From positions 2,437 to 8,725 of the forward strand of contig DNKW01000084.1 in assembly GCA_003488655.1 (NCBI GenBank): DNA of 6,289 nucleotides, in the 5' to 3' direction. Source of the stretch: Candidatus Altimarinota bacterium. GTDB lineage: Bacteria > Patescibacteriota > Gracilibacteria > BD1-5 > UBA2023. The notes under the pieces are model-generated. The model saw nothing but the letters and a program-made list of their open reading frames with translations. It was not told where the DNA came from and ran no database searches. Below, piece after piece: positions 1-6,289 of the stretch (its first letter is position 1; the number at the start of each line of letters is the position of its first letter). Both the position numbers and the translations under genes were made by a program.

Positions 1-2357
1 AGGATGGTCTGGAGATTACGAATATCCTGACTGGTTTCACCGAATATAAGGTCACGTAAGAAAGTGTAGATTTCTCCAATCTTTTGTACGGCAGAAGAGG
101 TATTGTTTTCTATATAGGAGAGTCGTTTCTGTTCGAGTGTTTGATCGATAGTCGTTTCTGATTTGGGAACAACTTTTTTCGCATATGTTGTGGAAAATAT
201 CTTTATTGCTTTCAATGCTCGTTCTTTTGAAAGAATATTCTTTCCATAATCTCGGTATATCATCAGGTGAAGTACAAAATCATCATAAGCTTGCACCGAT
301 GTTTCGTATTCGTTTCTGGAGATGGTTTCACTCTCGAGAAGAGTATTGAATTTCGCAAGAACCTTGCTTTCGAGAATACTCAACGGTTTCATCAGAAGAG
401 GATTTTTTGTTCGATAGAGGGTGATGTTGTGTTCAGGAAGATAGGCACGAGTAATATATCTGTCAAGGAAGTTTTTTGCAAAAGCAACACCGGACAGAAC
501 GATGCCGACACTGAGCCGTCACTCACTTTTTACTGTTTCGGACTTATTACCGGAAACCGCATCCTGCACCCGTAAGAAGAGAAGCGTATAAGCATTGATG
601 ATGCGATTATACTCACTATAGAGGCCCGAATCTACCGACAGATAGTAGGAAATATCGGAAATTGTGAGTTTATCTCCATAAGAATTGATGAGCTTCACGA
701 TGGCACTGTGAGTAATCTTCCCAAGAAGATATGCTCGAGATTCTTCGAGAGTTAAAAAGTATCTCGTATCCATTGAGCTGGCAGAAAGACTCGAAGGGGA
801 AGAGGAGATTGTCGGAATCCAAGTTGCTACCGGTGCAATGACCGTTCCGGTGCTCGTGCTAATAACTCCAGTACTCGTTATGCTTGTCGTAGTCACTGGC
901 GAACTACATTTGCCGTCATAGAAATTCCCAGAAAGATCTCCCGTCGGACAGATATCGGCTGATATACTTCATCCGCCTCATCCGCCACCGGAAGAAGGAG
1001 GTACTGCTACGATAGTGATATTATCTGAGTAATCGGCACTTACATTCAGTGCGAGATCACGGAATCGGACATAGACTGTTTGTGTTATAAGGGCACTGGA
1101 AGCGAGACTCCAGCTTGCCTTGCTTGTTGTATAAGCCTCCCAAGTACCTCCGATAAATGTCGGGGAATTGGAAATCATCATCTCGGTAACGCCGATATTG
1201 TCGGACGCTCCGAGAGTAAGTGAAACCGTTTGGCTCGTGGTGCTGGCTGCTCCGGCATTTATGAGGATACTTCCGGTTCCTGGAGGAATCGTATCGGGTA
1301 CTATGAGGCTCGGAAAGGCCTGAGACATAACATTGATTCCAGCGGGCCAGTCGATTGCACCGGTAGTATTTGAGAGAGTGTAGGTTCCTTGCGAGAGAGA
1401 GGATGTTGGTGTGAAAACAAGAGTGCTCAAATTTCCAGTGAGACTCATGATTCCAGCAATAGCCCCGGTTCCAAGATTGAATGAGAAGCTTCCTGTGGAG
1501 CTTGGGAAGAGTGATTCTGAGAGAGTCATAGTGAGAACTCCAGTTCCGATATTGATAGCTCCAGTCGTTGTGCTGGTTCCCGCAATCGTCATAATTCGAG
1601 GTCGTGCCCCGTCTGTTTCATTAATTAGACTATTTGTAAGAGCGACCCCGTCGAATATTCCACCAACCTGGGGAGTGTTTCCAGTTCCGAGAATATTATC
1701 GGTAAATGGGAGTATCCAATTGAAACCGCTCGCTGTAGCTACGGAAGTAGTAACTCATGCGATGATCACCCCGGAAAGAGCGGGAGCAGTTACGCCGGCA
1801 CTGGTCGCAAATGAGAGGATATACGCATCGATATATCCATTGGAGTTCAAGTCTGCCGTTACAGCCTTGATGATGGAGTTCGTGGAAGTGATACCGAGAG
1901 TAATATCTTTTGCAATAGTCCAAGCCGACCCGTTTTTTAAGAGAAGGGATATGTGGGAATTTCAGACAGGAGCAGAAGAGATTACTCGATAGGTGAATTC
2001 CGTTTTTGCGAGACAACCCGCTACTCCATTGAAAGAAAAACGGAAGTTTCCGTTGCTGTTGTTCAATATGGAAAACCCCGCACAGGTTGTCCCGATAGTA
2101 TTGGATGATTGGTATGTAAAGCCTGCTGGCATACTGAGAGAATACTCCGTTGCTCCGCCACCGGATACTTCCACAAATTGGAAAGTAATATCAGTATTGA
2201 AGTAACTCACATTATTCAGGCTGGTGGCATAGGTTTCATCTCACGCAGTCGCAATTTTGACATTAAAATCCACTGTACTTACCGCAAAGGCCGTCGGAAG
2301 AAGACTCGCGATAATCGAGGAGATAAGAAAGAAACAGAGGATTTTCTTTGCGTGCAT
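1..2357 (-). CDS. Large modular secreted surface protein, adhesin-like (3' end outside the window)
   Basis: At least 785 residues are present; the frame is open at the window edge. TGA codons 39, 132, 201, 460, 463 and 613 are read as glycine. Residues 1-25 are a signal peptide (TAFA|VS). Residues 26-131 form a beta domain with Cys92 and Cys115, a possible disulfide. Residues 165-255 begin with DLNSNGYID (169-177), an EF-hand/dockerin-type calcium loop, and continue as the module that often precedes SbsA-like Ig domains, ending in TDGARPRI. Residues 256-350 look SbsA/Ig-like. Residues 355-450 match a widespread bacterial Ig-like module: DTIPP, SDNIGVTEMMIS, WEAY, then VYVRFRDLALNVS. A seven-glycine linker (457-463) leads to a Cys-bracketed motif (470-484), a Ser/Thr-rich stretch and, from about 540 on, a predicted helical region I do not recognise. 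An adhesin or S-layer-type role is inferred. Only 6 bases separate it from the IPT gene. Confidence 0.87.
969..986 (-). repeat. Tandem 9-bp repeat encoding a glycine linker with two TGA codons
   Basis: TCATCCGCC occurs twice in tandem on the plus strand (969-977 and 978-986). On the coding strand this is GGC-GGA-TGA repeated, preceded by one more GGT, giving seven consecutive glycines when TGA is read as glycine. Slippage of a nine-base unit would lengthen or shorten the linker by three glycines without a frameshift. It joins the last Ig-like domain to the Cys-bracketed motif. Confidence 0.85.
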
Positions 2358-2363
2358 AGTTTT

Positions 2364-3377
2364 TTAATTAGTGATAGTAAATTTCATATTTTTGAGCTCA
2401 TAAATAGTGACAGTATCCATGATGTTGAAATAGTATTCTCCCGAGGGAAGTCCTTTTGGGATTTTTACTCCGGCAACCTGATTGTTTATGATATTGAATT
2501 CCGCATTTTTGAGAACGAGGTTATTGCTGAGTTGAATGGAAACAATCTTGTCGAAACCATTTCACTGAATGACGACGAACCTATCCTCGTTATTTTGTAT
2601 GGTTTTCGGAGTGATATTCGCGATATTGATAGCGGAACTGGAATATTCAAAGGAGAGACGGTGTTCCGAGGTGAGGATTTTGCCATTTTTAAGGGTAAAG
2701 AATACGAAGTATTCACCGCTCTGAAAAGTGTCTCGATCTATCTGAACGAAAAGCGCTCCACTCGAATAAACCGGTCGGATACGCTTCTCTCCGATATTCA
2801 CGAACTCGATGCTGTCGAGATTCTTTCCGCGGAGAGTGACGAGGTTATTGATATTGGAATTATATCCGGTTATATCTAGGGTTATGTCGGTTGGTTCAGT
2901 TTGAGGAATTGATACCAATTTTTCTTTCTCTTCGATACTCTTGTCTTCTCTATCGGTCTCTTCCGTAGTAGTGATTTTCGGCTGTATAACGGCGTTATCG
3001 GTACTGGTATTTTTCGCTTTTCCGGTAATCTTTAGGAGAGAAGAATCTCTGATATGAATATTTCCGAGATCTTTTTCCTGTATTTCTCTGTCGTCGAATT
3101 CTATACGCTCAATATCAAGAAAGTTTTTTAGAGGGAAAATATCGAATGCAATATTTCTCGGCGAGTTTCAGGAAAATATCCAAGTATACTCGACAATATC
3201 TCCCTTTTTATAAGGGACACTCGTACGAAAATCGGTTTGCCAAGTCAGGTTTCGCATAAAAAATCTCGTATAAAAATCTGAGCTGAAATCAATATCGCGA
3301 ACTTTATAGAAGAAGAGAAAAAGTCCTCAAAGTATGAGGATGATAAGAAGAAGAGCGATTCGATAGCGTTTGTTCAT
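2364..3377 (-). CDS. Single-pass membrane protein with two IPT/TIG-like domains
   Basis: The product has 337 residues, from ATG 3377 to TAA (2364-2366), with TGA codons 17, 70 and 272 read as glycine. Residues 5-24 form a membrane anchor or signal whose middle contains the first recoded glycine. Residues about 45-125 (YKKGDIVEYTWIFSG onward) suggest a DUF11-like beta-sandwich, with low certainty. Residues about 126-160 are a charged linker. Residues about 165-250 and 252-335 look like two tandem IPT/TIG-type Ig folds: VTLRGKNLD in the first aligns with VVIQGNGFD in the second, and SGEYFVFF with SGEYYFNI. The conserved glycine is GGA at codon 184 but TGA at codon 272. IPT/TIG domains occur in adhesins and other surface proteins, so an outward-facing structural or binding role is inferred. 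It is separated by 6 bases from the large surface protein, so the two are probably one transcript. No Shine-Dalgarno sequence precedes it. Confidence 0.85.
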
Positions 3378-3398
3378 AGATAAACGGTCTTATTTTCA

Positions 3399-3510
3399 GG
3401 ATATATATTTTTCACTTTCTGCGAAACTCGCTTTTTATCTGATAGCTCAAACAGCGATGGCGGTCCTCGAGGCGTTCGAAAAATATATCCCGAATGTGGA
3501 TTATTTTTCG
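3399..3510 (-). promoter_or_regulatory. Three-arm repeat ahead of the IPT/TIG gene, candidate alternative RNA fold
   Basis: A third related arm, GGATATATATTTTTC on the plus strand (3399-3413), has the same orientation as 3498-3510. In the transcript the middle arm (3490-3477) could pair either with the arm just upstream (7-base loop) or with this downstream arm (13 bp, a two-base bulge, about 63-base loop). The downstream arm ends 21 bases before the ATG at 3377. Mutually exclusive pairing of this type is the geometry of an attenuator or translation switch. No ligand-binding domain is recognised and no convincing promoter was found in this gap. Confidence 0.33.
3477..3510 (-). terminator. Hairpin just after the small Ig-like gene, possible terminator or attenuator
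   Basis: The plus-strand arms CGAAAAATATATCC (3477-3490) and GGATTATTTTTCG (3498-3510) pair over 13 bp with one bulged base and a 7-base loop. The hairpin starts 5 bases after the TAA of the small Ig-like gene. In minus-strand RNA the 5' arm carries an A-run and the 3' arm a U-run, as in many bidirectional intrinsic terminators. The stem is poor in G+C and no long U-tail follows, so termination may be weak. Confidence 0.42.
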
Positions 3511-3515
3511 TGCTA

Positions 3516-3950
3516 TTAATAGATATACAGATGAATATCTTTATTTACCAGATTCGGACCATCGTTCAGGGTAATCGTCACGGTTGTGAGGTTTCATGCA
3601 GGAAGAGTAGCGGGGGAGAGATAGGTGAAATTTATATATGCCCCGCTTCCAGAGTCGTAATCGCCCGGGTTAATAGTCCCGTTTATGGGGTTTGTATATC
3701 CGTCCATAGGAGTAATGGTGTAAGACACCGTGTCTTTCTCATCATCGCGAAAATAGAGGGTATAATTCTGGATTTTATTCGTACCAAGAAGTTTCGGATC
3801 GCTCGATGGAGTCAGTGTGGTGATAACCGGTGAATGGTTGAGGGAACCCACGACAGCGCTTACTCCCACGGACCCGTTTGCGAATACGAAAAATAGGGAG
3901 GAAGCGCTTCCTATAAAGACAACAAGAATACTGGCAAGAAATTTTTTCAT
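3516..3950 (-). CDS. Small exported protein with one cadherin/Ig-like domain
   Basis: The product has 144 residues, from ATG 3950 to TAA (3516-3518), with TGA codon 119 read as glycine. Under the standard code it would stop at residue 118 and lose its last predicted strands. Residues 1-24 are a signal peptide (MKKFLASILVVFIG core, likely cut near FA|N). Residues about 38-144 resemble a single cadherin/Ig-like beta-sandwich: SPVITTLTP, then YTLYFRDDEKDTVSYTI with an acidic Asp/Glu cluster that could bind calcium, then a final TVTITLNDG strand and a short tail ending in LYIY. The recoded glycine lies in the turn before that last strand. The gene starts 19 bases after the DUF916-like gene and probably shares its transcript. 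A structural or adhesive partner of the neighbouring surface proteins is a guess; no enzyme motif is visible. Confidence 0.83.
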
Positions 3951-3969
3951 AAAGGCGGTGAGGATGAGA

Positions 3970-5151
3970 TTATTCCTTTCTCTTACTATCTATAGCCTCC
4001 ATGAGTTCTTTTCGGAGACGTTCCTTGGAAGCGGGAACCGCGATGAACACGTAGTATCCGAGTGCCGAAAAGAGTCCGAGGAGAATGATAATTACGAGGT
4101 AATTGATACCCACATACTGTTCTTCATACTGCACGGTAATTTTCTTCGAGTCACGGAATTCTTTCTTTTCCTTGTCTTTTCCTTCGTAAGTAAGAACGAG
4201 GTTGGCAGAAATAATTTTATCTACGGTTCGTGTGTGGATGGACTCCCAAAACTGAAGAAACGCCCGTTTCTCCGCAGCCCTATCGGCGTAATAGGAAGTA
4301 AGGTCTTTAAATTTTACGACTTTCGTTCCATCTGGTTGAAGTTCCGGATATCCAAAACCTTCCCAAACGGACTCAAAACGACGTTCCGATTTTGGAAGAA
4401 CATTTCCAAGTCCGTCATTCACGGGAATATAATCTACCATTTTCTCTCCGATAAAAGCTCCGGCAGGACTAGTTATCGCTTCTTTTCCAACATTTTTGAG
4501 GATATCTCCACGCTCATCGATGAGTTCGATTCGCCCGGTTGGTTTCAAGTGAGTATTCCCTTCATTTTTAAATCTGGTTTCAAACAGTATGGGAAATGCA
4601 TTGAAGTCGGTGGTAGAACTGAAGGTATTTTCTAGTTTTTTTCCAATCTGAAAACTCTCAAGACTTCCGGCAATTTGTATATCTCCGGGAACATTGATGA
4701 GTATGAGAACTCCGAGACGTTGCACAACTGCAACCTGTACTCCGGATGGTGCTCCCGGAGAGAAAAATATCGCTCCATAATGTCCTCCCGGTTCTCCTTT
4801 TGGAGGTACCTTTACGATAAAGCGTATTTCACGGGTTTCTTTTTTTGCGAGGGTAATATTCGCATTTTCGATTTGTATCCAGTTCGAGAGACTAAATTCG
4901 TCGGAAGTCTGATTTTGTGGTTTCACGAAAGTCGGAGTACCCGTATCATCTCCCGAGATGAAATCTTCTTTGGAAGTATAAAGAGTGATGGGAGTATCGG
5001 AATTATTCGTAACTTTTATGATTTCCGATTTTTCTTTTCCCGCTTCAACAGTGAGTTCGTGCTTGAGAGGAGATATAGAAAGATTCGCGTGAGCAAAAGA
5101 TATACTGCAAACAAAGAGTGCGAGAGCGCTCAAATATCGTAATGACTTCAT
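3970..5151 (-). CDS. Secreted, C-terminally membrane-anchored DUF916/PapD-like protein
   Basis: The product has 393 residues, from ATG 5151 to TAA (3970-3972). Residues 1-22 form a Sec signal peptide with a likely AHA|N cleavage site. Residues about 23-150 look like a PapD/DUF916-type beta-sandwich: LSISPLKHELTVEAG, then IKVTNNSDTPITLY, then VPPKGEPGGHYGAIFF. Further probable beta domains follow. Residues about 349-372 (start NYLVIIILLGLF) form one membrane helix, leaving a short basic cytoplasmic tail, so the bulk faces outward. In Gram-positive WxL systems, DUF916/DUF3324 proteins have the same order of signal, beta domains and C-terminal helix and bind cell-surface partners; a similar role is inferred. 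The frame stays open 60 codons upstream without a good start, and the signal peptide fixes ATG 5151. It contains no TGA codon, although it has about 28 glycines. The small Ig-like gene follows after 19 bases, suggesting co-transcription. Confidence 0.88.
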   Translation of the reverse strand: MKSLRYLSALALFVCSISFAHANLSISPLKHELTVEAGKEKSEIIKVTNNSDTPITLYTSKEDFISGDDTGTPTFVKPQNQTSDEFSLSNWIQIENANITLAKKETREIRFIVKVPPKGEPGGHYGAIFFSPGAPSGVQVAVVQRLGVLILINVPGDIQIAGSLESFQIGKKLENTFSSTTDFNAFPILFETRFKNEGNTHLKPTGRIELIDERGDILKNVGKEAITSPAGAFIGEKMVDYIPVNDGLGNVLPKSERRFESVWEGFGYPELQPDGTKVVKFKDLTSYYADRAAEKRAFLQFWESIHTRTVDKIISANLVLTYEGKDKEKKEFRDSKKITVQYEEQYVGINYLVIIILLGLFSALGYYVFIAVPASKERLRKELMEAIDSKRKE

Positions 5152-5184
5152 AAGAAAAATAAATAAATGGAATAGATATGTGGA

Positions 5185-5212
5185 AATATAATGATTTTCG
5201 CGAGAAATACAA
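5185..5212 (-). promoter_or_regulatory. Weak candidate promoter for the DUF916-like gene
   Basis: On the minus strand, TTGTAT (5207-5212) lies 16 bases upstream of TATATT (5185-5190). The -10 matches the sigma-70 consensus at 5 of 6 positions and the -35 only at its TTG. Transcription would begin about 25-30 bases before the ATG at 5151. The 218-base gap before this gene makes a promoter here plausible, but in AT-rich intergenic DNA such matches are common. Confidence 0.22.
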
Positions 5213-5243
5213 GAAAAAAGTCTTATAACTACAGAATTTTTCC

Positions 5244-5368
5244 AGAAATATGAAAGAATGATAATTTTCGTGTGAAAATTGCGAACTGGAGTGACCTGTA
5301 CGAAGATAGTACAGTAAACGAGGAAGTGCAAAATTTGAGCACAAAAATTGAAATTATTTCATATTTCT
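5244..5368 (-). repeat. Long-range 12-bp inverted repeat with two nested hairpins in the intergenic gap
   Basis: On the plus strand AGAAATATGAAA (5244-5255) is the exact reverse complement of TTTCATATTTCT (5357-5368). Between them lie two small perfect hairpins: 5263-5280 (7-bp stem, AATTTTC/GAAAATT, 4-base loop) and 5296-5314 (6-bp stem, CTGTAC/GTACAG, 7-base loop). The outer arm at 5357-5368 begins immediately after the TPR gene's stop codon in the transcript. Close by, 5349-5361 could form a very short AT-only hairpin followed by a U-rich run, at best a weak terminator. The arms are AT-rich, so chance matches are possible. Whether this is a terminator, a processed leader or nothing cannot be told from one sequence. 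Confidence 0.4.
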
Positions 5369-5369
5369 C

Positions 5370-6203
5370 TTACCAGTCTTTTTTCCCATCGTTGGATGGT
5401 AAAACATCCTGGAAAAATGAATCATATCCGAAGAAATTACGTATCTGGTTCGAGAGACTTCCTGCTTCTCCTCATTTTTCCGGATTCAATAACTTTCCGT
5501 TTTGTTTCTCGAATTGTTTGAGAGTTTCTAGGTATTTTTTCACTTCCTGTCGATCAATATCGGATAATTGTGAATTGAGCGCGTCTTTATTTTGTCATCC
5601 TATTGGATTATAGGATCCTCCATTGGACCAGTTCTGTTTGGGTTGCAGTGTGTCTTTTTCATTTCCCGATTGTTCAGTGGTTTCTTTTTTCCCATCACCG
5701 CTCTCTGTTTGTCGTCCTTCCCTTGGTTCCTTATTTTCCGTGTTTTCTTTTTGCTCCGGTTTAGTTTCTGTTCCGGAACCTGTTTTTTCCTCTTGTTCTT
5801 TCTTCTCTTCTTCCTTTTTTTGTTTCTGTTCTTTTTCTTCCTGTTGAATCTGCTCTCTTACGAAAGCGAGATTTTCTTCGGTTTCCCGATCGGTACGTAT
5901 GGAAAGCGATTTCGTGTAGTTTCCGACTGATTCTCCCCAGAGCCGTAGTCTCTCTATATCTTTTTCTCACTGCCCAAGTTTATAGAGAGTATTTCCGAGG
6001 TTATAGAGCGTATCCGCTTTCAGAAGAGTGCTTCCCGAAAGGTCTTTAAGGATATCCTCGTAATGTTTTTTGGCATCGGGAAGATGGTCTTTTTGATATG
6101 ATATGTCGCCAAAAAAACCAGACAAAGAATCTCACAGTGTGGAGAAATTATAGATTCCGCCGAAGGAGAGGAGAATGAGAAGAAAAACTACAAAGCGTTT
6201 CAT
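5370..6203 (-). CDS. Membrane-anchored TPR protein with charged low-complexity tail (BatC-like)
   Basis: The product has 277 residues, starts at ATG 6203 and ends at TAA (5370-5372). TGA codons 24, 79, 203 and 244 are read as glycine. Residues 4-23 are a hydrophobic anchor or uncleaved signal. Residues about 34-112 look like TPR helices: a PDAKKHYEDIL segment, then LYNLGNTLYKLGQ, then a segment ending in EENLAF. The second unit seems longer than the usual 34 residues. Residues about 116-185 are very rich in Glu, Lys and Gln, probably a coiled coil or disordered linker, followed by a Trp/Asn/Gly-rich stretch and a C-terminal segment ending in KKDW. TPR proteins of this build (anchor, YNLGN-type repeat, charged tail) occur in Bat operons beside vWA proteins, where they are thought to scaffold envelope complexes. 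The start is chosen because the anchor follows directly; no Shine-Dalgarno sequence precedes it. The family assignment is inference. Confidence 0.82.
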
Positions 6204-6289
6204 CGTTTGATAAAAGAAGAGGGAAGTAAAAGAAAGACAAGAAAAAAGAAAAAACTCGTCATGATAAATATTTGTATGGTCGCATCACC
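6188..6289 (-). CDS. 3' end of a membrane protein (5' end outside the window), possibly BatA/B-like
   Basis: Only the last 33 codons are present. The frame is open from the window edge and ends at TAG (6188-6190) if the TGA at 6200-6202 is read as glycine. The visible residues form one strongly hydrophobic segment rich in Phe and Leu (TSFFFFLVFLLLPSSF), followed by a basic IKR and a short Gly-Asn-Ala-Leu tail. This looks like a C-terminal transmembrane helix with a cytoplasmic end. The frame overlaps the start of the next gene by 16 bases, which suggests translational coupling. In Bat-type operons a vWA protein with a C-terminal helix often precedes a TPR protein such as the one downstream, so a BatA/B-like product is possible; no vWA sequence is visible here. 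A second minus-strand frame is also open across these bases but looks less protein-like. Confidence 0.5.

Follow-up and report, generated by a model that had tools for sequence, protein, structure and literature searches.

In-Frame TGA Codons Predicted to Encode Glycine in a Putative Envelope Gene Cluster of a Candidatus Altimarinota Contig

The Gene Cluster and Its TGA Codons

The 6289-base stretch of contig DNKW01000084.1 (Candidatus Altimarinota bacterium, assembly GCA_003488655.1), referred to here in its full length as the window, has a GC content of 0.417 and carries a cluster of likely envelope genes with recurrent in-frame TGA codons. Nearly all of it is minus-strand coding sequence once TGA is taken as a sense codon. 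These TGA codons, which lie mostly opposite GGN or TGA in relatives, are predicted with scarcely any doubt to be decoded as glycine, as in NCBI table 25. The assignment of TGA to glycine in this lineage is already known, so the finding, although correct, is an ordinary one; of more use than the code itself is the gradation of UGA usage among relatives.

When open reading frames (ORFs) are called with table 25, the genes follow one another on the minus strand in the order g6 tail, g5, g4, g3, g2, g1. The g6 tail (6188-6289), which has a TGA at 6200-6202, is the C-terminal end of a gene that likely encodes a BatB-like von Willebrand A protein, an assignment taken from the copy at the related locus L002. 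g5 (5370-6203) encodes a BatC-like TPR protein and contains TGA at 5472-5474, 5595-5597, 5967-5969, and 6132-6134. g4 (3970-5151) encodes a 393-residue DUF916 or WxL-interacting-protein-like (WxLIP) envelope protein, and its window copy has no TGA. g3 (3516-3950) encodes a small protein of 144 residues with a signal-peptide-like start (TGA at 3594-3596). g2 (2364-3377), the product of which is hydrophobic near its N-terminus and weakly matches TIG/IPT, contains TGA at 2562-2564, 3168-3170, and 3327-3329. g1 (3-2357), which the window edge truncates where a PG_binding_1 domain begins, encodes an Ig-like and probably secreted surface protein with a glycine-rich linker, and contains TGA at 519-521, 969-971, 978-980, 1755-1757, 1962-1964, and 2241-2243.

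In-frame TGA codons thus number 15 in five of six genes (g6 tail, 1; g5, 4; g4, 0; g3, 1; g2, 3; g1, 6), which is the count given by the initial annotation; 14 of them are solid, and the fifteenth (6200-6202) is ambiguous, as it overlaps the ATG of g5 (ATGA). The related loci L002 and L003 share the overlapping TGA, and in them it is followed four codons later by TAG or TAA. Because the downstream start codon could have preserved these bases, this TGA is weak evidence. The ATGA at 6200-6203 may be a former stop-start overlap that turned into a read-through upon the change of code.

The frames run on to TAA or TAG, as had been noted: the four genes that lie completely inside the window terminate in TAA, and the g6 tail in TAG. 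Internal TAA and TAG are absent from the 1936 codons, although base composition alone predicts about 49 and 31, respectively; TGA occurs 14 times versus about 31 expected. TGA is used as a sense codon, but sparingly, in the window genes, where it accounts for 14 of 149 glycine codons; the same genes contain 14 TGG codons. ORFs of at least 100 amino acids cover 0.718 of the window under the standard code and 0.966 with TGA as sense, and 0.660 and 0.700 when TAG and TAA, respectively, are freed. The corresponding values for 260 kb of the relative genome G002 are 0.668 (standard), 0.885 (TGA), 0.715 (TAG), and 0.764 (TAA).

Codon Alignment with Relatives

A search of genome contigs with the g4 protein found three loci, all in metagenome-assembled genomes (MAGs) of Candidatus Gracilibacteria: L002 (STA_89), L003 (STA_21), and L001 (STC_120). 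Homologs of g1 to g4, g3 included, are present in all three, and a g5 homolog in two; none was found in L001. In the codon alignment of the five genes with the three relatives (two for g5), amino-acid identity to L002, L003, and L001 is 92, 86, and 75% for g4, 84, 71, and 60% for g2, and 85, 78, and 65% for g3, respectively.

Each cell of this alignment is the relative's codon opposite a window codon. The 38 cells opposite the 14 solid TGAs comprise 16 TGA, 13 GGN (7 GGA, 5 GGG, and 1 GGC), and nine others (two each of Ser and Pro; one each of Ala, Val, Trp, His, and Lys). GGN or TGA appears in at least one relative at 13 of the 14 TGA columns, and GGN at seven. When other window codons were drawn at random, gene by gene, 13 GGN cells were reached in 2 of 20000 draws. 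The BLOSUM62 sum at the TGA columns is 65 for Gly, followed by 1 for Ser, and is -40 for Trp. In the reverse direction, the 27 TGAs of the relatives that do not face a window TGA lie opposite 14 GGN, four gaps, and nine other sense codons, none of which is TGG.

A mycoplasma-type code (table 4), in which TGA is read as tryptophan, would be favored by the single TGG opposite a window TGA and by the Trp residues found in many database homologs (see section Database Translations). Conversion of TGA to TGG takes one transition and conversion to GGA one transversion, yet TGG occurs once and GGN 13 times, which favors Gly over Trp; Trp accounts for just one of the 22 non-TGA cells. Tryptophan is written TGG in these genes, as had been stated, and window TGG is aligned with TGG in 38 of 39 cells. 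Table 4 was rejected on this conservation and on the GGN and TGA opposite the TGA columns, and we regard it as very improbable.

Pseudogenes or sequencing errors under the standard code would account for the fragmentary appearance of the standard-code ORFs. Such damage is hard to reconcile with the lack of internal TAA and TAG, with the sharing of TGA by other MAGs in 16 of 38 cells, and with frames conserved at 51-92% amino-acid identity. This explanation was rejected, and its probability is negligible.

The genetic code of Absconditabacteria, which we take to be number 37, likewise reads TGA as Gly and in addition reads CGA and CGG as Trp. It belongs to a sister clade, and one locus of the 30-locus g4 panel described below has CGG opposite a window TGG (among 83 ungapped cells). 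Moreover, some Gracilibacteria are reported as predicted to read CGG as Trp (PMC8629427). In the window, by contrast, the 33 cells in which CGA faces another codon hold Arg 21, Lys 5, Gln 4, His 1, Ser 1, and Pro 1, and the 13 such cells for CGG hold Arg 9, Lys 3, and Glu 1. Trp is thus absent from all 46 cells, and G002 encodes a tRNA-Arg with anticodon UCG. Table 37 was rejected because CGA and CGG lie opposite mainly Arg and never Trp, and it is highly unlikely to apply here.

tRNA and Release Factors

The tRNA and release-factor state was read in the genomes of the three named relatives (G001-G003). Each carries one gene with an RF-1 domain, which passes the cut-off for release factor 1 (RF1) in all three, and none has release factor 2 (RF2) over its curated cut-off. 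G002 encodes a 79-nucleotide tRNA with the anticodon UCA, of which G003 has an identical copy and G001 a copy of 99% identity; ARAGORN reads the UCA anticodon in all three. The presence of this tRNA and the lack of an RF2 match over the cut-off were the two checks proposed by the initial annotation, and both came out as expected for table 25.

The UCA tRNA has an acceptor of the form GCGGG...CCCGC with a 7-bp stem and U73 before CCA, and its ends are the same as those of the G002 tRNA-Gly(UCC). The elements G1:C72, C2:G71, G3:C70, and U73 are of the glycine type, and the D arm is unusual. These elements served as the criteria for tRNA-Gly(UCA) in an earlier study (PMC8629427). The glycine-type acceptor with U73 further argues against a tryptophan tRNA, and G002 carries a separate tRNA-Trp(CCA).

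ARAGORN labels the UCA tRNA "SeC," which could suggest site-specific recoding, e.g., insertion of selenocysteine. SelB over the cut-off was found in none of the three named relatives (selA and selD were not searched), and weaker SelB matches occur in these relatives and equally in each of the 14 control genomes, a pattern that other translational GTPases would produce. The tRNA is 79 nucleotides long with a 7-bp acceptor stem and U73, and the TGAs are spread over five genes, mostly opposite Gly or TGA. Recoding was rejected on the SelB result, the form of the tRNA, and the spread of the TGAs, and there is hardly any chance that it explains these codons.

In the G001 RF1 gene, one TGA is aligned with the Gly of GRIHTS (motif GR[VI]HTS) in RF1 of PDB 4v4r, presumably the Thermus thermophilus protein. 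Since the query had TGA translated as Gly, what counts as evidence is where the TGA lies and that the solved protein has Gly there; another TGA, close to the C-terminus of the G001 protein, is not informative.

Under glycine decoding, the lineage likely lost RF2, and the UCA tRNA, which GlyRS (glycyl-tRNA synthetase) would charge, would decode UGA as glycine, with RF1 alone ending translation at UAA and UAG. The window's own genome would carry the same tRNA and the same loss of RF2. The window shares with genetic code 25 of Gracilibacteria (BD1-5) and Absconditabacteria (SR1) the TGA-Gly assignment and the TAA and TAG stops, and the named relatives have the UCA tRNA and no RF2 over the cut-off. 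The codon alignment together with the tRNA and RF2 state of these relatives agrees with the earlier claim of table 25 as opposed to mycoplasma-type TGA-Trp. BD1-5 genomes are reported to carry prfA and no prfB (PMC6851277), and 97 peptides unique to the Gly reading, versus 3 unique to the Trp reading, are reported for a BD1-5 population (PMC4032931).

A panel of 99 genomes around G002, including G001-G003, was examined for the same markers. A g4 match is present in 73 of these genomes, RF2 over the cut-off in 20, and DNA matching the UCA tRNA over its full length in 64 (81-100% identity). The anticodon itself was read in G001-G003 only, and a search of this kind would miss a divergent tRNA. 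RF2 and the UCA tRNA nearly exclude each other, with both in one genome and neither in 16 (Fisher's test, 6e-10, in genomes that are related to one another). An earlier study lists the UGA-Gly assignment of Gracilibacteria among the known codes and reports two exceptions that lack the tRNA and have RF2 (PMC8629427).

Several observations weigh against glycine decoding. One of the 38 cells opposite window TGA is TGG (g5 codon 24 versus L002), 9 of the 22 non-TGA cells, located in g1, g2, g3, and g5, are not glycine, and the relatives compared are not independent. The completeness of the genomes is not given, such that the absence of RF2 may partly reflect missing sequence, and the state of the tRNA and of RF2 is observed in relatives and inferred for the window's own genome. 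Of the 99 panel genomes, 16 lack both an RF2 above the cut-off and a full-length match to the tRNA, and the two occur together in G059, a 2.7 Mb genome that may be a mixed bin. G059 also has an additional release-factor match containing 16 TGA.

Graded Use of UGA in g4

The g4 gene was compared across a panel of 30 loci (L074-L103), which includes the three named relatives. The TGAs of these loci are aligned with window Gly in 227 cells and never with Trp; 90 further cells hold another residue and 38 a gap. Window TGG is matched by TGG 78 times, by TAC twice, by TTT, CAA, and CGG once each, and by a gap seven times. The CGG, found at one of the 30 loci, is a hint of CGG as Trp in some relative.

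An outgroup was formed by five loci from genomes with RF2 over the cut-off; L079, L080, and L089, from genomes with no RF2 over the cut-off, were left out. No TGA occurs in the g4 genes of the five RF2-bearing loci. Of the 1604 residues of these loci aligned with panel TGA, not counting 171 gaps, 793 are Gly and none is Trp; GGA is aligned with Gly in 641 of 1157 and TGG with Trp in 228 of 308. The Gly share versus this outgroup is 49% for TGA and 55% for GGA, with noise added by distant partial homologs. The absence of Trp opposite TGA, in both the window comparison and the outgroup comparison, is a further argument against table 4.

TGA makes up from 0 to 0.97 of the g4 glycine codons, and the higher the local GC, the lower this share (Spearman -0.87 for 26 loci, among them the window but not the five RF2-bearing loci, with no phylogenetic correction). 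At loci of more than 40% GC, the window among them, UGA provides 0-7% of g4 glycine codons, and at the AT-rich extreme it provides 32 of 33. The window therefore shows no difference in kind from code 25 genomes: TGA is 14 of 149 glycine codons here and up to 97% in one gene in AT-rich relatives. There is about an even chance that UGA has taken over glycine in this clade along a continuous gradation that base composition determines, after RF2 had been lost and tRNA-Gly(UCA) gained a single time. If so, the same gene can be traced through every step into RF2-bearing outgroups without TGA, and the clade offers a natural test of codon capture.

Database Translations

A protein search found 236 database homologs of g4, and the figures that follow for Trp at glycine columns come from the best 120. 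Among these, 72 carry at least one Trp at a window-Gly column, the maximum being 23 such residues in one protein. The initial annotation had treated Trp at the TGA columns of homologs as contrary to glycine decoding; Trp does occur in database proteins, and is likely a product of table-4 translation rather than a refutation, because TGA faces window Gly in the g4 DNA panel and because P0072, with 18 Trp at window-Gly columns, has "gcode 4" in its source name. The same translation would explain the database Trp without a tryptophan code. In a protein-level column test over the 236 homologs, two columns passed a threshold of 70% Gly, with Trp at 24 of 236 residues there, and 14 Trp were found in 169 other conserved columns; few columns pass because Trp in the database proteins lowers the Gly share.

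The two other treatments are represented as well. P0001 is a table-25 translation of the g4 gene of L002, and P0045, encoded on a contig equal in length to that of P0001, is a 254-residue piece of the same gene, left by a table-11 reading and starting shortly after a TGA. This fragment exemplifies the splitting of such genes by standard-code annotation that had been anticipated. Standard-code or table-4 annotation damages the genes of this group, and searches, alignments, and structure models inherit the error.

The Envelope Gene Cluster

On the basis of domain matches, the cluster likely consists of envelope genes, encoding a BatB-like vWA protein, a BatC-like TPR protein, a DUF916 protein, a TIG-like protein, and an Ig-like, probably peptidoglycan-binding surface protein. 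Its role, to judge from the domains only, is probably in cell-surface assembly or attachment. The g4 match to PF06030 (E 4e-9; 37.0 bits versus a gathering score of 27.3) is over the cut-off and is shared with the Firmicute WxL-interacting protein (DUF916); the Pfam matches obtained for the five window proteins include no WxL domain. The TIG score of g2 is 19.6 bits, below the cut-off of 20.9. Neither Pfam nor NCBIfam gave a match for the g1 protein of the window itself, and its L002 homolog ends in a PG_binding_1 domain.

As in the Bat cluster, a BatB-like vWA gene is followed by a BatC-like TPR gene, but both models score below their curated cut-offs; for g5, the BatC NCBIfam model (named for Leptospira) gives E 2.7e-9 and 36.8 bits under a curated cut-off of 175. 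Upstream in L002 lie genes for a PBP transpeptidase, a protein without a family, and a BatB-like vWA protein. Nothing points to a viral origin, as a scan of viral contigs with six g4 peptides found no relative and phage records contained no match to g5. A literature search for DUF916 in Gracilibacteria or the candidate phyla radiation found no study of this gene cluster.

L001 carries a 2531-residue ORF (1319-8914), weakly similar to g1, upstream of g4, with a signal-peptide-like ORF (region 8900-10000) between the two.

g2 to g5 are nearer to L002 than to L003, and in the middle of g1 this order is reversed. Residues 121-420 of g1 are nearer to L003 (0.65-0.73 per 60-residue block versus 0.40-0.55 for L002), and residues 1-60 and those from 541 onward are nearer to L002 (0.72-0.87 versus 0.62-0.75 for L003, and 0.15 where the L003 frame ends); residues 61-120 and 421-540 have mixed affinity. 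g1 thus looks like a mosaic, in which the exposed Ig-like middle was perhaps exchanged.

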